Virus record (IMG/VR): IMGVR_UViG_3300042900_000355
Coordinates: 1 to 58,887 of that record
Direction: 5' to 3' (one strand)
DNA length: 58,887 nucleotides
From: a virus
The notes beneath the pieces were generated by a model. The model did not search any database, had not been told where the DNA came from, and saw only the letters and a list, made by a program, of their open reading frames with translations. This document shows positions 34,653-49,927 of this stretch, piece by piece. The translations under genes were made by a program, and so were the position numbers. Position 1 is the stretch's first letter. The number at the start of each line of letters is the position of its first letter.

Positions 34653-35021
34653 TTAGCCACCTGCGGCTTGAATTCTTCTCGCTAGAGAATTGATCTGTTG
34701 GTGCAACGCCTGTGCTTCGAGGTCTCTGGGCATCATGCGGTCAGCATATTGATAACTTGTGCCGCCCAGTTGATCAAACTGTGCCTGTTTGGCAGACAGT
34801 TCTCTTTTCAATGCATCAACATCAACTGACGCTGCATCTGCTGCCGCAGATTTTGCTGCTTGTGTTTGCCGAGCCAGGTACGCTGTACGATCTTGTTTGC
34901 GTAACTCGTCATGTTCTGGATCACCATGTATGCGGAGATTGGCAAATCGAGGATTATTTTTTTGTAATTGTTTGAAATAATCTGTCAAACTATCGTTTTC
35001 AAATAAGTCGGCAAGTTTCAT
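34653..35021 (-). CDS. Late protein with capsid-targeting-like N-terminus, 122 aa
   Basis: Begins MKLADLFENDSL, fitting M-x3-acidic-hydrophobic-x-E as in T4 internal head proteins (MKTYQEFIAE). The rest is helical, Gln/Ala/Arg-rich (LARQTQAAKSAAADAA) with coiled-coil potential and ends RRIQAAGG. It is last in the operon that starts at 36626, whose members include the Dps-like protein. A virion-internal role is inferred. Confidence 0.72.
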   Translation of the reverse strand: MKLADLFENDSLTDYFKQLQKNNPRFANLRIHGDPEHDELRKQDRTAYLARQTQAAKSAAADAASVDVDALKRELSAKQAQFDQLGGTSYQYADRMMPRDLEAQALHQQINSLARRIQAAGG

Positions 35022-41799: not shown

Positions 41800-42315
41800 T
41801 CAATGTCCAGTGGCTGCTAATTCAGCGCCTTTGTTGAATGAGTTTGACCAGGAGGCTGCGCTCTTACGACCCTTTGAGATGCTCCAGTTGTATCCAGCAC
41901 GGTGTCCGGAACAGTCTTTGGTGCATTGTGAACCCATGAAGGTGAGTTCGTCCAGTTGTTCTTCTGTGACATCTTGTTCCCAAACTCTAACATCTTCTCC
42001 ACGGTGCCTGTTCCAAAAGCCTGCACCTGCATCTGTTTGGTCCCAACTGCGGTTGATAACAAATCCACGACTCTTAATGTAGTCGTACATGACTCTAGCA
42101 ATACCTTGACCTTGATACTTTTCATCAACTTGTAAATCTTGTGGATCAAGTGCTCGACCATCCATGTTAAAAATAACATGACCCATTGCATTTCCAAAAT
42201 CATTAAGTGCTTTGACGATTAATTCACCGTCTTTTTCCGCCATAGTAAAAGTAACACCCTCAAATTCTTGTGTAGGATATTTTTTGTATTCAACTATGAA
42301 CTCTTGGGCTCTCAT
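41800..42315 (-). CDS. GNAT acetyltransferase fused to a CTKDCSGH module, capsid-targeting-like N-terminus
   Basis: The N-terminus MRAQEFIVEYKK matches the T4 internal-protein targeting peptide pattern. Residues about 20-110 are a GNAT domain (VDEKYQGQGIARVMYDYIKS is the acetyl-CoA loop). DVTEEQLDEL (Glu118, a possible cleavage site) separates it from a C-terminal module, GSQCTKDCSGHRAGYNW and FNKGAELAATGH. I recall this C-terminal module from many aquatic phages, often in large late proteins. It might be an injected acetyltransferase. Confidence 0.75.
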   Translation of the reverse strand: MRAQEFIVEYKKYPTQEFEGVTFTMAEKDGELIVKALNDFGNAMGHVIFNMDGRALDPQDLQVDEKYQGQGIARVMYDYIKSRGFVINRSWDQTDAGAGFWNRHRGEDVRVWEQDVTEEQLDELTFMGSQCTKDCSGHRAGYNWSISKGRKSAASWSNSFNKGAELAATGH

Positions 42316-44441
42316 TTTTTAGGTTGAACTGCTGTGGGCATGTTGCGATACACACGTTTGGCGGGATCGTACACAGTTTTTAACGGTCCCAGGCCAGCCA
42401 GCTTTTTTACTCTGGCAACCATGTCTTGGTAGTCATCGCCGTAGTCGGCTTCGGGCGGATCACGATAGTCTGCACCCTTTTGTTGCTCGCCTTCGTCCAT
42501 GCCTGATTGTTTATTTCCATGTGGCCATTTGATACCCATGCTCTTGTCCAATTTAGAAGTCAAGTCTTTGTCTAAATGATCAATGTCTTTGGCATATTTG
42601 CCTGGATCATACGGAGCACGCGGTGCTTCGCCACCACCATATGCACCACTGCTACGATGTATGATGCCTGTTTTGGTTTTTTCAACTTCGCCTTCTGTGG
42701 TGCGAGCAGGTAATTTTTTGTAGTTGCTGCCTTTATCCGCCTTGTTAAACTCTCGAGCAACATCTTGACTGATGCCAACTTTCTTGGCAAACTTGGGATT
42801 GTGTGCGGCTGCTGCCATGGTGCGGAATTGTGCTTGGCTTACTGACTTTTCATTGACTTGGTCTTCCGCCATACCTTGTTCTTTTGCAAAGTCCATGTCT
42901 GTTTTTCCAGCATCAATTTTTGCTTTTTCAGCATCAATTTCTTTTTGTTTTTCTGCGTCTAACCAATACTTGTCATTCTTTTCAATGATAGCTTCGGCTT
43001 CATCTTTCTGTAATGTCACTGGCCATTGTTCACCGCGCCATCTAAATTCAGATTTCCCTTGATATGCATTTTTGGCATGCAATATCATAAACTCTACTTT
43101 TTCAGCTTCACTTCCAAAATATTTTTCAACCATCATCTGAATCACACCTGGCACTTTGTTTTGTTGATTTTGTAATGTTTGGAATAACTGATTACCAACT
43201 GCGGTGCTGGCTGCCGCGGCTGCAAACGGACCTATCAATGCTGTTGTTGCTGCGTATGTGCTTATTGCACCTATTCCTATAGGCAAAAAGTCACTAACAA
43301 ATCTAGACGCAGCTCTCATAAAGATTGCCAGCATCGAACTTGGATTAAAGATTTCATCGATCTGTTCAACTTTGCTCCATCCAATTTTTCTACCGTCCGG
43401 TAAAGTTGCTTGCATTGGCCCGTCAATCATTTTAGCCTGTGTAATTTTAGCACCCGGAAACTTGCTCATGACTAGTTGTGCCCATTGCGCTTGTGTGCGA
43501 CCTTTGGCGTCAACTGCTCTTTCCATTCCTTCTGCCATGCCTTCTTGCATGTTCTTTAATAGTTCTTTTGCTTTTTCAACACTAACCATTGGTCTTGGGT
43601 GCTTACCGTCTACTACACTTTGCAAATATTCTTTGCTAAAGCCTTTTGGTGCTTCTGCAGCCGGTTTATTATCAGCAGGTGCTGTCACTGTTGCACTTGG
43701 CTTTAATCCGCCGGTGAAACCACCTTGACCATCAGGAGTAACTCTGGCATTGGCACCACCTGCACCCAGAGCCATGGCACCTGCTAATGCGGCTGAACCC
43801 AATGCGCTTTTCCACCCTTCAGTTAAATCAGTTACACCAAAACCAATATAGCTGTCACCGTGTTCGTCGCCTGATCGAACAACAAATGCGCCGCCCTCTT
43901 CACTTTCAATTTCACCAATTTCCCAACCTTGGCGAGCTAGAGCTTGTTCAACTTGTTGTTGTACAGCATCATCACCATTGTACCACATACGAGCGTACTT
44001 GTGTAGTGTATCTTCTTCACCACTGTCACCGCCATCACCTGGCGCAAATTCATTCAACGAGCCCTCCGCCACACCTTGCTTTTTGTTTAACTCTTTGTTT
44101 AGAATCTTTTCACCATGTTTGGCTACTTTTTCGGGTGTGGTTGCTTTAGCGGTGTATTCTTTCTTGCCAGCGTTTGAATCATTACTACCATCACGACCTG
44201 GAGGTGTTTGTGATTTGTCCATTTCCATCACACCTTCCGACTTGTTGCCATAGTTGTCTGCACCTTTTTTACGGCACTGAACCAAGCGTCCTGATGCATA
44301 GGCTGACGGCCAAACTTTAGCACTTGCTTTGACCTTGTAGTAGCAGGCATCTTTCTTTTCCGCCAGGATCAAGTCTGAAAAACTAATGCCACCGCATTCG
44401 GGACACAGTTGTGGGGATTCGTATAAGTCGTGTATGATCAT
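42312..44441 (-). CDS. Modular late protein with putative prohead-protease sites, 709 aa
   Basis: Short modules are separated by repeated [VLM]-x-E-[GD] strings. The N-terminus MIIHDLYESPQL is targeting-like, followed by CPECGG (zinc knuckle), then the YYKVKASAKVWPSAYASGRL module (34-53), GVAEG (Glu126), LTEGWKSAL (Glu208) before a hydrophobic span (213-228), GMAEG (Glu304), a long hydrophobic region (369-415), GMAED (Glu526), the AAAAHNPKFAKKVGISQDVA module (543-562), GMDEG (Glu650), and the tail LAGLGPLKTVYDPAKRVYRN. The regular placement suggests a packaged polyprotein cut by the phage head protease. Coupled as ATGA to both neighbours. No enzymatic domain identified. Confidence 0.75.
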   Translation of the reverse strand: MIIHDLYESPQLCPECGGISFSDLILAEKKDACYYKVKASAKVWPSAYASGRLVQCRKKGADNYGNKSEGVMEMDKSQTPPGRDGSNDSNAGKKEYTAKATTPEKVAKHGEKILNKELNKKQGVAEGSLNEFAPGDGGDSGEEDTLHKYARMWYNGDDAVQQQVEQALARQGWEIGEIESEEGGAFVVRSGDEHGDSYIGFGVTDLTEGWKSALGSAALAGAMALGAGGANARVTPDGQGGFTGGLKPSATVTAPADNKPAAEAPKGFSKEYLQSVVDGKHPRPMVSVEKAKELLKNMQEGMAEGMERAVDAKGRTQAQWAQLVMSKFPGAKITQAKMIDGPMQATLPDGRKIGWSKVEQIDEIFNPSSMLAIFMRAASRFVSDFLPIGIGAISTYAATTALIGPFAAAAASTAVGNQLFQTLQNQQNKVPGVIQMMVEKYFGSEAEKVEFMILHAKNAYQGKSEFRWRGEQWPVTLQKDEAEAIIEKNDKYWLDAEKQKEIDAEKAKIDAGKTDMDFAKEQGMAEDQVNEKSVSQAQFRTMAAAAHNPKFAKKVGISQDVAREFNKADKGSNYKKLPARTTEGEVEKTKTGIIHRSSGAYGGGEAPRAPYDPGKYAKDIDHLDKDLTSKLDKSMGIKWPHGNKQSGMDEGEQQKGADYRDPPEADYGDDYQDMVARVKKLAGLGPLKTVYDPAKRVYRNMPTAVQPKK

Positions 44442-44791
44442 TTCTTTTTAGTGGCCACGTTGATGGCCTTTCCTGTGCGGTTGGGGTTGGGATCTTCTCT
44501 GCGCTTTCTTCTGGCTGCTGACGCACGACCTTTTTTGCCCAGAGCATGTGCCTTGCTCTGTGGCAAACACTTGGGCTTGCCTTCTTTTTCACTGCCTCTA
44601 GCACAGTCGCCACGGATTTTGCCATCGGGCCCAAATCTCACCCACTTGTCTTTGAACCAATCACGAAGATTTTCTTCCAACTCAGTTTCGCTCACAGGCA
44701 CACAATTGGGCACCTGACGACCACCTTTGTTTTTCATGCCTGCTTGGCGATAACCGTCCCAGCAGGCTTCGAGAATTTCTTTATATCTCAT
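44438..44791 (-). CDS. DUF5872-like basic late protein, 117 aa
   Basis: MRYKEILEACWDGYRQAG starts with the targeting-like MRYKEILE, with a possible cut after Glu8. The body is the conserved DUF5872-type sequence (KDKWVRFGPDGKIRGDCARG; then KPKCLPQSKAHALGKKGRAS) with conserved Cys residues and a strongly basic C-terminus. I recall it from many aquatic phages, often as part of larger proteins. It probably binds DNA inside the capsid (inference). The ATG follows AATAAATA and seven bases, without a Shine-Dalgarno. Confidence 0.78.
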   Translation of the reverse strand: MRYKEILEACWDGYRQAGMKNKGGRQVPNCVPVSETELEENLRDWFKDKWVRFGPDGKIRGDCARGSEKEGKPKCLPQSKAHALGKKGRASAARRKRREDPNPNRTGKAINVATKKK

Positions 44792-44797
44792 GATTGT

Positions 44798-47700
44798 TTA
44801 TTTATTGCGTTTGGCTTTAGCCCGTCCAGCCTTCATGTTGGCCATCCAATGTGCCAATTGTCCTTTGCGACCGCCTTGTTTGGCCACTTTACGCAGGGTG
44901 CCAACTGATGCTTTGGTGGGCACACCGTATCTTTTTGAGTCGCCTTTGTCCTGCGGATTCCGACCATCCGCAAAGTTTTCATTCTCAATACTTTTGCCAC
45001 CGCTGTCGCCTACGCCCAGATACTTTATAGCATATTCTCGGGCACGTTGCTGGCCTTCAGGAGTGTATGCTTTGTCAAGAGCATCCCATCCGCGCAACAC
45101 AATCCATTTTTCTTGCGCCTCGTCCCATTCCATATAGCTGCTGACGTTTACTAAGTCTTTAATCTCAGCTGGGAATTTGTTATGTCTAGTGGCATTGAAG
45201 TCATGCCCAATATTGGGAGGAGAATCATGACTGCCCCTAGCATCTATGTATTTTTGAGTTTTTACATCATACACATAAGCATGAGTCAGGGACCAATTTT
45301 GATGATTGTATTGTATATCCTGTTGCCGTGCCGGGTCGAGTTCATCGAACTCGTCAGGTTCTATATACATGTCTGGCATAGAATCAAAAAATTCATAGAC
45401 AAATCCTAATGGAAATCTTTGAGGATCCATTTTGTGTATTGTAAGTGCTAACACTGCACATTCACCTTGCATGTACTGAGCTTGTGCAATGGCCCGCTCA
45501 TCTGATTCAACAATAAATTCATTTGCTTCTGCAAGTTCTTCTTTGCCCAAGAATGTTTGAGCAAACAACTGACACTCGCCCCATAGTTTATCATTTTCTG
45601 TCACATACACACGGAAGTCAGCGTCTCGATCGTCATGCTGTGTGGGGTCTTGATAGCCTGCATACACCTTGTGTATGCCCACAGAGTTCAGTAGGTCTTT
45701 GCAACTTTCACCGTGGCGTTCTTCCATGGGTGAGTTGCAGGGACTGCAAGTGGTCACAACAATTGAACCGTCGGGTATCTCACCTATGCTTTTTCTATAC
45801 TTGTCTATGGCCACTCGTTCAGCATGGCGGCGTGTGCCATCTCGGGCAGGCAAGTTGATGCCGTAGATCATTCTGTTGTCAGGGTCAATCACACAGGCAG
45901 CAACTTGTCCATAGCGTTCAGGATCTCGCTGTTGACCTTGCACTACCATGCGGCAGCATTTGGCCAGCACACGATCTAGCTTGGGTCTATCATGCAGTTC
46001 ATAGTCGCCGGCTGACTCTGCTAGGCCTTCTGTCATGATCGGAACAACTTCAATTTGTACCAAGTCTGTATTTGGCGCATTACTTCTTATCCATTGTAAG
46101 GCAATACCATTGGCATCTGACTGCGAATTACCAATGCCGCTGAATCTATACAATTCTTCACCAGTGTCAACATTCATTACTTTCCAGGCACCAGAGAATG
46201 TGCCAGGTGTGGCTCGTTGTCGTGCAAGGTCTGCTGTGCTCCCAGGATAGACCACCTCCACATCTGGCTCGACATCAATTATACCACCCGATGCTGCGTC
46301 AGTGCTACCGGCAGTTTGCCGAGTTCTTACTTCAAAGTCATTGGGATTATAGCCGTTTTGGCTTAGCCACGTTCTTGCTTCTGTTTCAGCAGCACCGCGA
46401 TTTGTGAACTCAGGATTGTAGTAAACTTGGTTATTGCTTCTACTAGCCACTTCCCATGGTCCTGGTCCAGTTGGTCTTAGAGGGTTCACATCTGTTTGTA
46501 CTGTGTCTGCAGGCTGGTCCCATTGTTCAGTATCCACCACCATGTAGTCAGCAGGAACTACATTGTTTCTAGCAGCCCATGCTTGGAGAATATATCTGCC
46601 TTGTGCCTGCTCTGCTGGATTGCCCATGTTGAATCTAAACAGATATTCAGGTCGTCGACCACTTCGTCCATACAAGGCTGGATCTGAGCGTGGCACAACA
46701 GCATAGCGACCATTGGGATCGTTAGGTCTACCGCTTTGGCTTCTGTCAGTATTTGGTCCGTACACAATGTTTTCGTCACCAGGATGTGCTTCTTCCCACT
46801 GCTGTAATACTGTGTATGCATCTTGGTAATTAACAGCATTAAATCTATAAATGATTTCATTAGTATCTGAATTCTTCAAAAACCAGTTACCGTCAGGATT
46901 ACTTGGGCGGCCGTTCAAAGTTGGCACAGTTGCTTCTTCATACGGACGCACAGGCTCGGCAACAATGGATTGTCGGGTGTTAGCCCAAGACGGATAGCCA
47001 TCGTCACCCAAGGCTTTTTCAATAGCTTCTTTTTTACTTGACGCAACAACTTCTACACTGGCATAACTATTGCCAGGATTGGAAACACGCCACCACATCT
47101 TTTCACCGCTTGTTTCGCCGCGTTTTTCTTTGCGTTGTAGTTGTGCTTGTTTCACAAAACTACGCAAGGCTGCCCGGGGAATCTTGCCAGCAACATAATC
47201 AGCAAAGTATTTGATGGTGTCTGAGCCCTTTTGGTCCTGTGTCAATAGTTTGTACAGTTTCTTTTGGTATTCTTCCCGGTATGCGTCAGGGTTGAGTGCC
47301 GCACTCATGGCCACTGTAAAACGCAACAGAGTGTTTTCAATTTGGCTAAAGTTTTCATCCAACCAGTCACCACCAGGTGAACGGAATTCAATGTGTCCGT
47401 CCTTGGTATTGATTGATGTGTACTTATCTGTGTAGCCTCCGTGAATGGCCTTGGAAGCCAGTTCACCCATTTGGCCTTTCATCTTATCCAACAACTGCTG
47501 TGCTTCTTCGGGCCGTTGTCGTACACGATCACGCACTTTGCCCAGAGCAGATTTGGCGTAGGTATTTGATGCACGACCAAACAAGTCTAACACATACTCG
47601 TCACCTAATAATAAAGCCAACTTCACAAAGTCCAAGCGGTCTTTACTGTATTCAGGCACAGAAATGTTAATGTGCAGGCCAGTGGACTGATTGGTATAAA

Positions 47701-49927
47701 CGCCCATGCGTCCGGCCCAGGCCTTCACTGCATTCAAATCTTTCAACAGTTCATCTATGGGCATGGGTGGTGATACAAACTCTAGGCCTTCGTCTCCGTC
47801 ATTGTCGCCTTCCAAACTGCCGTCTGGTTCTACTATATAAAACTGATTGTTGGGTCCGGGTCTGTCGCCTGACTGATGGTATCTTGTGTTGACTCTGACT
47901 TCACGACCCACAGCACGACTGAATTCGTCAGCCACTTGATCTGCATCAATCTCGCCGCTGTTCATGCTAGTCCAATAGGGCCAATTCATACCATACATTT
48001 GCTCGACACCACTCATACGGTCAAGGTCTGTGGCGTCTAGCCAGTCGCTTTCGTCCCAGTTGTCCTGATTTTCTTCACGGTATTCATCAAAGGCCTGATT
48101 GTAGTAATCACTAGAAGGATCAGCATAAACATTAGCAACAAATTGATCAAGTGAATCGGTCTTGTCTGCATCAAGGTCTGCCCACTCGTCTTCATCTACA
48201 TTATTCACAATCCATTCTCTGAGGTATTCTTCGCCGTCCATGCCCCAGGAATCGCGAATTTTATCATCCAGCCATTCCTGGAAATCTTCCTGCATTCGTT
48301 CACGCAGGAGTTCAACATCTCTGCGACCGTTGTAGTCGCCATCATGAAAAAATCGCACAGCATCATCAATGCTACGGCAGCGTTCGTCCTGATCATAATC
48401 TGGTTCCTGTTCAGGATCGTCTGACTTGATGCCGGGCACAATCATTTCAAATTCCATGCCAGCAATAGCACCTGTTTTGGCAGCTTCCCGACGTAAGTTT
48501 TTGCTGCCCATGTTTATTTCAAACAGGTCTTGTTCTTCAAACAATTCAAATTCTCGTGCTAGACTTTCTGACAAACTTACCTTGCCGTCTGCTCGCAACA
48601 GTTGTGGATGACCTTGTGCGTCTGTGACTAGACGCATTTTGTTGGCTTCTCGGCCTGTTTGTCCCGGATGCACATCAACAGTTAGTGCCATCTTGAAACG
48701 TGGATCATCTGCTTGTGCCTTGGTAGGAATGTATCCAGATGACTCACGAATGGCTTCTTGGTCAAACAGTTCTGGATGTGCATCTGCAAAGTCTCGCATG
48801 ATGATGCCTGCCACAGCGTGTGCTTCATTTTCTATAGGCGACCCTGTGTTGCCAGATGTGTGATCCAATTGTTCTAATTCATTTTGACGACAGTGTGCCA
48901 GTTCATGTGCTGTGGTTCGCAAAATATCCATGATATGACGATTGCGAATGTTCACATGCAACACATGTTGATCGGGAATGTACATGCCAAACGAATGATT
49001 TTCTTCACTCCATCCATCATTGTCATGCAGCACAATTTCAGGCATGCGTTCAATACCTAAACGATCAGCAGTGTCTTGAATAAACTGTTGCACCATGTTC
49101 TCAGTGTCATCTTCGTTCAAGAACATTTGTGTGCTGGGTGCCACGCCATCTGGTGAGCTGTAGGGTTGACCTTGATGGCCTTCTGAAAAGCCCCAATGGA
49201 ATTGCGGAGCATGGCCTTGTTCTTTTAGACTTAGTTCGTGATCTTGTGCGGATGTTCTAGCTGTGCGCAAATCTTTGATGCAACCTTTGTTGCGCAAGAT
49301 TTTGAACACAATGTTTTCACAACCAAACTCACCGTGTTTGTCCAGGCCACTTTGACGCATGGCTTTGATCTTGTCCCATAGTCTGCCCATAGCTTCGGCA
49401 TTGCCAGATTTAATGGCACTATGTATTCTAGCATCTAAATCTTCTACCTTGGCTCGCACACAGGTGTCATCTACACGAGCTCGTTTTCTACGTGGTACTT
49501 GAATCCATTCTTCACGTGGGATAGAATACTCGCCTTGACTCACAGGAGACTCGGCTGCGTTTTGCACATACAATTCCACAGGCACGCCGCCAATGCTCAA
49601 TGTGTGTTCGTCGTTGTATTGATATTTTTTGGCGTTGAACAGTTCCTGATATATTTCATTGTCAGCAGGAAATTCCACCACAAGGTGTAGATCAATGTCG
49701 GAATATGGAGTGTAATTGTAGGCAGCATTGCTACCCGAGATAGTGATGTCACGGACGTCAAGGTCGCCCACGCCAAGAAATTCGCGAAAATTGTCAGCAA
49801 TGGCTGTGAGTTTTTCACGCACCTCGGGCAACAAGTGCTCGTCTCGCCCCCAAATTTTAGGGTTGAGACGATTGTGAAACTTTACAGCATCGCTTAGTTT
49901 AAAGGAGTCCAGTTCTGTAATATGCAT
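44798..49927 (-). CDS. 1709-aa multidomain protein: nucleotidyltransferase, zincin, amidoligase, repeats, deaminase, papain-like
   Basis: Domains in order. Residues 1-235: nucleotidyltransferase (ISGSNAAYNY, then SDIDLHLVV 76-84). 265-400: zinc peptidase-like (HELAH 341-345, with ENEAHA giving the third ligand). 488-870: amidoligase of the ATP-grasp-related/GCS group (GMEFE 490-494, GLEFVSPP, STGLHINIS, HIEFRSPGG). 944-1296: five repeats of about 55-90 residues built on a Trp start and an 'A...A..W' helix. 1306-1460: deaminase (RRHAERVA with HAE 1358-1360; TCSPC with Cys1394 and Cys1397). 1475-1640: papain-like (Cys1490, His1549, Asp1562). 1653-1709: basic tail module. LSE|S (454), MTE|G and LAE|S (1300, 1304), LAE|A (1467) and IVE|S (1474) lie at domain borders. 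No frameshift was seen. Confidence 0.82.
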   Translation of the reverse strand: MHITELDSFKLSDAVKFHNRLNPKIWGRDEHLLPEVREKLTAIADNFREFLGVGDLDVRDITISGSNAAYNYTPYSDIDLHLVVEFPADNEIYQELFNAKKYQYNDEHTLSIGGVPVELYVQNAAESPVSQGEYSIPREEWIQVPRRKRARVDDTCVRAKVEDLDARIHSAIKSGNAEAMGRLWDKIKAMRQSGLDKHGEFGCENIVFKILRNKGCIKDLRTARTSAQDHELSLKEQGHAPQFHWGFSEGHQGQPYSSPDGVAPSTQMFLNEDDTENMVQQFIQDTADRLGIERMPEIVLHDNDGWSEENHSFGMYIPDQHVLHVNIRNRHIMDILRTTAHELAHCRQNELEQLDHTSGNTGSPIENEAHAVAGIIMRDFADAHPELFDQEAIRESSGYIPTKAQADDPRFKMALTVDVHPGQTGREANKMRLVTDAQGHPQLLRADGKVSLSESLAREFELFEEQDLFEINMGSKNLRREAAKTGAIAGMEFEMIVPGIKSDDPEQEPDYDQDERCRSIDDAVRFFHDGDYNGRRDVELLRERMQEDFQEWLDDKIRDSWGMDGEEYLREWIVNNVDEDEWADLDADKTDSLDQFVANVYADPSSDYYNQAFDEYREENQDNWDESDWLDATDLDRMSGVEQMYGMNWPYWTSMNSGEIDADQVADEFSRAVGREVRVNTRYHQSGDRPGPNNQFYIVEPDGSLEGDNDGDEGLEFVSPPMPIDELLKDLNAVKAWAGRMGVYTNQSTGLHINISVPEYSKDRLDFVKLALLLGDEYVLDLFGRASNTYAKSALGKVRDRVRQRPEEAQQLLDKMKGQMGELASKAIHGGYTDKYTSINTKDGHIEFRSPGGDWLDENFSQIENTLLRFTVAMSAALNPDAYREEYQKKLYKLLTQDQKGSDTIKYFADYVAGKIPRAALRSFVKQAQLQRKEKRGETSGEKMWWRVSNPGNSYASVEVVASSKKEAIEKALGDDGYPSWANTRQSIVAEPVRPYEEATVPTLNGRPSNPDGNWFLKNSDTNEIIYRFNAVNYQDAYTVLQQWEEAHPGDENIVYGPNTDRSQSGRPNDPNGRYAVVPRSDPALYGRSGRRPEYLFRFNMGNPAEQAQGRYILQAWAARNNVVPADYMVVDTEQWDQPADTVQTDVNPLRPTGPGPWEVASRSNNQVYYNPEFTNRGAAETEARTWLSQNGYNPNDFEVRTRQTAGSTDAASGGIIDVEPDVEVVYPGSTADLARQRATPGTFSGAWKVMNVDTGEELYRFSGIGNSQSDANGIALQWIRSNAPNTDLVQIEVVPIMTEGLAESAGDYELHDRPKLDRVLAKCCRMVVQGQQRDPERYGQVAACVIDPDNRMIYGINLPARDGTRRHAERVAIDKYRKSIGEIPDGSIVVTTCSPCNSPMEERHGESCKDLLNSVGIHKVYAGYQDPTQHDDRDADFRVYVTENDKLWGECQLFAQTFLGKEELAEANEFIVESDERAIAQAQYMQGECAVLALTIHKMDPQRFPLGFVYEFFDSMPDMYIEPDEFDELDPARQQDIQYNHQNWSLTHAYVYDVKTQKYIDARGSHDSPPNIGHDFNATRHNKFPAEIKDLVNVSSYMEWDEAQEKWIVLRGWDALDKAYTPEGQQRAREYAIKYLGVGDSGGKSIENENFADGRNPQDKGDSKRYGVPTKASVGTLRKVAKQGGRKGQLAHWMANMKAGRAKAKRNK
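44799..44806 (-). promoter_or_regulatory. NATAAATA late-promoter-like motif
   Basis: AATAAATA followed by AACAATC and ATG of the DUF5872 gene. It overlaps the stop of the 1709-aa gene and no Shine-Dalgarno is present. Confidence 0.52.

Follow-up and report, generated by a model that had tools for sequence, protein, structure and literature searches.

The stretch of DNA analysed here (the window; IMG/VR virus record IMGVR_UViG_3300042900_000355) is a 58,887-base virus fragment, and the question that it raises is why one of its open reading frames (ORFs) should join a nucleotidyltransferase, a metallopeptidase, an amidoligase, five small repeats, a deaminase, a Cys-His-Asp module and a basic tail in a single chain of 1709 residues. 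The original prediction described one intact frame, and this is borne out: the ATG frame is uninterrupted, a second contig (locus L001) holds an identical copy and full-length relatives with 42–80% identity are present in many other contigs, which rules out an assembly accident. The relatives comprise 48 IMG/VR loci (33 non-redundant) on contigs of up to 364 kb. As judged from sequence, the ORF very probably encodes a virion-cargo polyprotein of the internal-head-protein type from a T4-type jumbo phage of lake water, which would be cut by the prohead protease and the products of which would probably be ejected.

Relatives of the protein lose, replace or insert modules or split them off into consecutive genes, and the breakpoints lie directly after a [LIVMF]-x-E tripeptide (hydrophobic-x-E, hxE), the predicted cut falling directly after the glutamate. 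At residue 395 of the window protein, for example, L037–L040 and L047 insert other modules. The motif is found at 74 of 75 exchange junctions (∼59 expected from linker shuffling) and at six of the 50 amidoligase–repeat and repeat–repeat junctions, which do not exchange (∼13 expected); the exact test used a slightly smaller tally (67/68 versus 6/50). A hydrophobic residue occupies position P3 for 48% of junction glutamates versus 22.5% of those inside modules (P = 4 × 10−20). The prohead protease of T4, gp21, cleaves after L/I-x-E (PMC9026906), and almost every swap, insertion or split site matches this recognition motif; the motif-like cut sites noted between the modules in the original prediction are well supported. 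Three of the cuts proposed there, at 454, 1304 and 1474, agree with the motif; the fourth, at 940, does not, because amidoligase–repeat junctions carry it in just two of 23 relatives.

The N-terminus of the window protein reads MHITE↓LD (the arrow marks the predicted cut), a mini-leader ending in (L/I)-x-E, and full leaders of this capsid-targeting kind are present on neighbouring genes and on stand-alone modules. The latter start with a short leader, such as the nine-residue MRAQEFITE↓ and MRANEFIVE↓ or MKYLELKE↓, and appear close to the T4 capsid-targeting sequence MKTYQEFIAE↓, with which the T4 internal proteins (IPs) IPII and IPIII begin; T4 Alt begins MELITE↓LF (read from NC_000866). Of 631 distinct ORFs in the related loci, 73 show a strict leader pattern, with 0.8 expected by shuffling; none of 497 internal windows does. 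When 84 strict-leader ORFs were compared with homologous modules inside other ORFs, 32 of 43 cases had hxE no more than five residues from the expected cut (P = 1 × 10−16, against a background of 16.7% of 11-residue windows). The leader in MRAQEFIIE↓GKLSVDVPNEEW, for instance, is equivalent to the internal linker in QTVTE↓GKLSVDVPNEEW, and the window protein itself contains a fossil leader, EELAE-ANEFIVE↓SDERAIAQAQ, which is matched by the start of L041, MRANEFIVE↓SDERAIAQAQ. At the DNA level, Arg2 of the leaders is encoded by AGA in 41 of 45 cases, compared with a usage of 25%.

Of 14 internal hydrophobic export-like segments, some of them from loci homologous to each other, 12 start no more than 12 residues behind hxE, versus an 18% background (P = 8 × 10−8). 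These segments, judged by their sequence to be Sec-, Tat- or lipoprotein-like, occur in the polyproteins of relatives and in one window gene (42312–44441); among them are IAE↓DMSRRGFLKGAGAMAAG and LEE↓DWKSALATGAMAGAMAMGASA, with LysM and GH19 coming next. Since internal signals of this kind should be functional only after cleavage at that point, their placement behind hxE counts for cleavage, and it is evidence found independently of the leader test. Tat-type twin-arginine signals also lie directly behind a predicted cut in leader-tagged proteins of L016 (15931–16509), L036, L037 and L040, which would be exported once processed.

These observations bear on the possibility that the ORF encodes a true multi-enzyme fusion acting as one metabolic or regulatory protein in the infected cell, with hxE a mere feature of acidic linkers. 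The linkers are indeed acidic and the motif is common by chance, as the background given above indicates. However, residues 992–1298 of the window protein contain 19 glutamates and not one hxE, although the linkers between the repeats have an AlphaFold2 (AF2) confidence score (pLDDT) below 50, so the motif is not merely a property of flexible linkers. Given also that leaders and linkers interchange and that export-like signals lie inside chains, a permanent fusion is highly improbable.

Most of the module assignments in the original prediction hold. The nucleotidyltransferase matches phrog_36119 over residues 14–233 (1.5 × 10−44) and, just below the cut-off, NTP_transf_2 over residues 56–127 (0.0018); its GS..SDID core is invariant, with Gly65, Ser66, Asp77 and Asp79 constant in 27 sequences, as befits the GS...DxD core of Pol-beta-type enzymes. 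The HExxH peptidase matches phrog_87 (0.009) and its His341, Glu342, His345 and Glu366 are invariant in 22 sequences. The amidoligase shows a match to Amidoligase_2 (PF12224; 6 × 10−6 over residues 662–855, 26.7 bits versus a curated cut-off of 22) and the top structural matches of its AF2 model in the PDB are glutamine synthetases, albeit weak ones (E = 0.026), in keeping with the glutamine synthetase/γ-glutamylcysteine synthetase (GS/GCS) fold of this family. The five small repeats are seen in the AF2 model as β-(β)-α-β units at residues 943–1300 and are counted with the amidoligase product because hxE is absent between 992 and 1298. Values of pLDDT below 50 are also found at residues 241–272, 389–474 and 1642–1657 and count in favour of the polyprotein reading.

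Of the two remaining assignments, the deaminase holds with a corrected zinc site and the papain-like module is unconfirmed. The deaminase is supported by PF00383 (1.5 × 10−10 over residues 1325–1424, 41.3 bits versus a cut-off of 25) and by an invariant zinc site of the PC-x11-C form, composed of His1368, Cys1397 and Cys1409 together with Glu1370. The CxxC pair originally proposed, Cys1394 and Cys1397, was rejected because residue 1394 is leucine in several relatives. For the toxin-like cores named in the original prediction, a sub-threshold match to MafB19-deaminase in one relative is the sole support. In the module described as papain-like, the residues Cys1490, His1549 and Asp1562 are present; the structure prediction and fold search that had been suggested for each segment, which gave the repeats and the glutamine synthetases above, returned no significant match for this module in PDB or BFVD (AF2 and Foldseek, with five relatives only), and a profile search of PDB sequences recovered no papain-like fold either.

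Relatives add further enzyme modules, namely ADP-ribosyltransferase (2.9 × 10−14), NUDIX (1.4 × 10−18), GNAT, GH19, LysM and NT5C-like. Judged by its domain matches, this pool (ADP-ribosyltransferase, NUDIX, GNAT, GH19, LysM, deaminase, amidoligase and nucleotidyltransferase) would fit a role in host take-over or counter-defence. A structural or scaffold-like head protein that undergoes cleavage and is then discarded, its domains no longer catalytic, would share the motif with scaffold and major capsid protein (MCP) processing, and T4 core proteins are cleaved and then lost. Such a fate is very hard to reconcile with catalytic residues that are invariant across 12–27 relatives and with accessory enzymes that differ between phages, and is given little credence.

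The presence of an embedded HExxH peptidase raises the alternative of a polyvalent protein (Iyer et al. 2017), a single injected multi-domain chain that remains uncut or processes itself. Its defining feature, several unrelated effector domains in one mobile-element polypeptide, is present here; the multi-domain content is of the conflict type, metallopeptidase and Pol-beta nucleotidyltransferase are both among the listed domains, and DdrB of phage P1 is processed and packaged (PMC5512222). Against this, the sites fit the gp21 motif and T4-like leaders, the same sites occur in many leader genes that have no peptidase, and the peptidase is itself leader-tagged cargo in L048 (MRLREFAE↓). This alternative is therefore considered improbable, and cleavage by the prohead protease is preferred.

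Several points weigh against prohead-protease processing. The motif is short and is found inside folded modules too, and the loci and leaders are mutually related, so the P-values overstate independence. A blind test at the boundaries of high-scoring segment pairs (HSPs) gave only a modest enrichment of hxE (33–40% versus 24%) because HSP ends are fuzzy, and the leader-equivalence test was used in its place. The N-terminal mini-leader ends in D and not E in some relatives (L017 and L026); in T4 IPIII, D at the cut position blocks processing and keeps targeting (PMC9026906). The last junction of the window protein, ENE↓NFAD, has no hydrophobic P3, and the tail may thus stay attached. Lastly, the window fragment (58.9 kb) has no head genes, so that the link to the protease rests on relatives. 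Related contigs encode an S77 (gp21-type) protease that keeps the LGE-x-x-HP and GVSSRG motifs of T4 gp21, a gp22-type scaffold and a gp23 with LKE↓NASSGST at its N-terminus, the protease being found in six and the MCP in seven of 11. Small leader genes of 60–73 residues (MRAHEIMENASxGxTxSGxIAPVxxPMG) are present in L010, L018, L020, L021, L026, L027, L032, L036, L045 and others; the part behind the leader resembles the predicted mature start of gp23, LKE↓NASSGSTVSGNIA.

From these comparisons we infer that the window polyprotein would be cleaved, packaged and ejected and that its modules would be active as enzymes. Following late expression, the chain would be taken up into the prohead core through its MxIxE leader, possibly aided by the basic tail, and a gp21-type S77 protease would cleave after the glutamate of the linker hxE sites during head maturation. 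The predicted products are the nucleotidyltransferase, the metallopeptidase, a short SGY peptide, the amidoligase with its five repeats, the deaminase and the Cys-His-Asp module, with the tail peptide possibly released as a further product. These would remain with the DNA inside the head and be delivered to the host at infection, as T4 Alt and IPI–III are, there to modify host proteins or nucleotides or to block defence; in relatives, some modules have a Sec- or Tat-like signal immediately after the cut and would reach the periplasm by export. The original suggestion of a delivered effector bundle is well supported in this sense, as the protein looks like capsid cargo. For jumbo T4-type phages at large, the odds lean slightly towards the prohead protease serving as the maturation system for a combinatorial, recombination-built multi-effector payload, in which leaders double as cut sites and cutting unmasks Sec or Tat signals, so that one chain serves both cytoplasm and periplasm.

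The basic tail noted in the original prediction begins ENFADG everywhere, and glutamate precedes every tail in the first set of loci. An 11-base DNA word, GAAAACTTTGC, lies at its border and is almost fixed at synonymous sites over 37 tail junctions from L001–L048 (35/37 at each of three codons; P = 1 × 10−8 for AAC); the codons behind it vary freely. In cargo genes of the first set the word has 33 hits, all at ENF and nowhere else. This conservation suggests that the module border may act as a seed for recombination at the level of DNA. A search with the word yielded 80 further loci and 63 distinct new tail junctions, with L, I, V, M or F at P3 in 46, the glutamate at P1 being set by the search pattern and hence not evidence. 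Some loci encode small basic leader-tagged proteins of leader and tail alone (MRFREIIE↓NFADG..., MRAREFVIE↓NFADG...). The tail domain is widespread in other metagenomic phage contigs (L077–L156), sometimes as leader plus tail only; a search of INPHARED with it gave no match.

Table 1. Features of the proposed polyprotein ORF and of adjacent genes, in window coordinates.
Feature	Residues	Position	Strand	Remarks
Cargo polyprotein ORF	1709 residues	44798..49927	-	ATG at 49927, stop at 44798, uninterrupted frame
N-terminal mini-leader MHITE↓	1-5	49913..49927	-	Relatives M-x-[ILF]-x-[E/D]↓; cf. T4 Alt MELITE↓LF
Pol-beta-type nucleotidyltransferase	6-236	49220..49912	-	G65-S66, D77-x-D79 invariant
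Linker, hxE sites LKE236, FSE249, LNE272		49112..49219	-	AF2 pLDDT <50 at 241-272
HExxH metallopeptidase	273-395	48743..49111	-	phrog_87, conserved residues
Mobile mini-module SSGYIPT... (59 residues)	396-454	48566..48742	-	IRE395 to LSE454
Linker, hxE sites LFE464, FEE465, LFE470		48518..48565	-	
Amidoligase, glutamine-synthetase-like fold	471-935	47123..48517	-	Pfam and AF2
Five small repeats, ending MTE1300	to 1300	46028..47122	-	AF2; no hxE between 992 and 1298
Spacer GLAE	1301-1304	46016..46027	-	Second site LAE1304
Cytidine/dCMP-type deaminase	1305-1467	45527..46015	-	H1368, E1370, C1397, C1409
Fossil capsid-targeting leader ANEFIVE↓	1468-1474	45506..45526	-	L041 stand-alone relative
Putative Cys-His-Asp module	1475-1650	44978..45505	-	Fold unconfirmed
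Basic tail NFADGRNP...	1651-1709	44801..44977	-	Preceded by ENE in the window
DNA word GAAAACTTTGC (11 bases)		44970-44980, starting at 44980	-	Exactly at tail-module border
Adjacent cargo-like gene, leader MRYKEILE↓		44438..44791	-	
Adjacent cargo-like gene, leader MIIHDLYE↓		42312..44441	-	Internal LTE↓, then Sec-like signal GWKSALGSAALAGAMALGAGGANA
Sec-like signal GWKSALGSAALAGAMALGAGGANA after LTE↓ in gene 42312-44441		about 43745-43817, start about 43817	-	
Adjacent cargo-like gene, leader MRAQEFIVE↓		41800..42315	-	GNAT-like (sub-threshold)
Further leader gene, MKLADLFE↓		34653..35021	-	

The neighbourhood in the window includes genes for a T4-type DNA polymerase, a ClpA-like ATPase, a radical-SAM protein and a probable glycosyltransferase-like protein, the last recognized from reading the sequences. 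Among isolated phages (INPHARED), no full-length relative of the ORF was found, only single modules encoded as separate genes, and a search with a 25-kb stretch of the window gave no near-DNA relatives. The nucleotidyltransferase gene of Maribacter phage Molly begins MNLKTLVE↓T, the amidoligase of Atu_ph07 contains LTE↓LKMNSS and a gene near the nucleotidyltransferase of cyanophage S-N03 begins MKGFSNFLIE↓A. Phage S-SRM01 has a leaderless peptidase homologue amid DNA-metabolism genes, so the leader architecture is not universal. Ribosomal protein bS21 is encoded in nine of 11 large related contigs (those of L003, L013, L014, L045, L021, L019, L032, L047 and L011), away from the head genes; it lies beside them in Bacteroidetes phages (PMC9723584), and identity with those phages was not established.

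If this interpretation is correct, a tailed DNA phage would use a polyprotein strategy for effector delivery, driven by its capsid maturation protease. A simple sequence rule (leader M[KR]..[EDQ][FIL]..E and internal hxE) would then make it possible to read off which proteins large uncultured phages inject, many of their products being `hypothetical' at present, and the model predicts the exact N-termini of the products. The modular, leader-addressed design also suggests a route to the quick gain of new injected proteins.

The claim that no such phage protein had been described is true of the processing logic, in that no prohead-protease-processed effector polyprotein appears in the literature searched (subscription journals and preprints not covered); related kinds are known, among them T4 Alt and IPs and polyvalent proteins. 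The T4 IPI–III proteins, which are injected and block type IV restriction enzymes (PMC9026906, PMC12373910), share a near-identical leader form (M[KR]xxQEFIxE↓), the hydrophobic-x-E cut and a phage background with gp21, gp22 and gp23; however, they are single and small, whereas here up to seven modules form one chain and leaders have turned into spacers between modules. T4 Alt, a large enzyme, is likewise packaged and has a mini-leader six to seven residues long, and an ADP-ribosyltransferase module is present in the relative L020, but Alt is a single enzyme and no ADP-ribosyltransferase domain was found in the window protein. Polyvalent proteins resemble it in joining 2–15 dissimilar effector domains per chain, in predicted co-injection with DNA and in their nucleotidyltransferase and peptidase domains (PMC5512222). 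They differ in domain set (`amidoligase' and `papain' are absent from the text of PMC5512222) and in the proposed processing, by embedded peptidases there and by the prohead protease here. The head ejection proteins of phiKZ and SPN3US are packaged, processed by a prohead protease (A-x-E in SPN3US) and ejected (PMC7411985, PMC9026906), steps that are predicted from sequence for the window protein; they carry N-terminal propeptides rather than site-separated enzyme modules, and P3 of the motif differs. On the reading preferred here, the system in the window combines the T4 internal proteins and Alt with polyvalent effectors in a new form.
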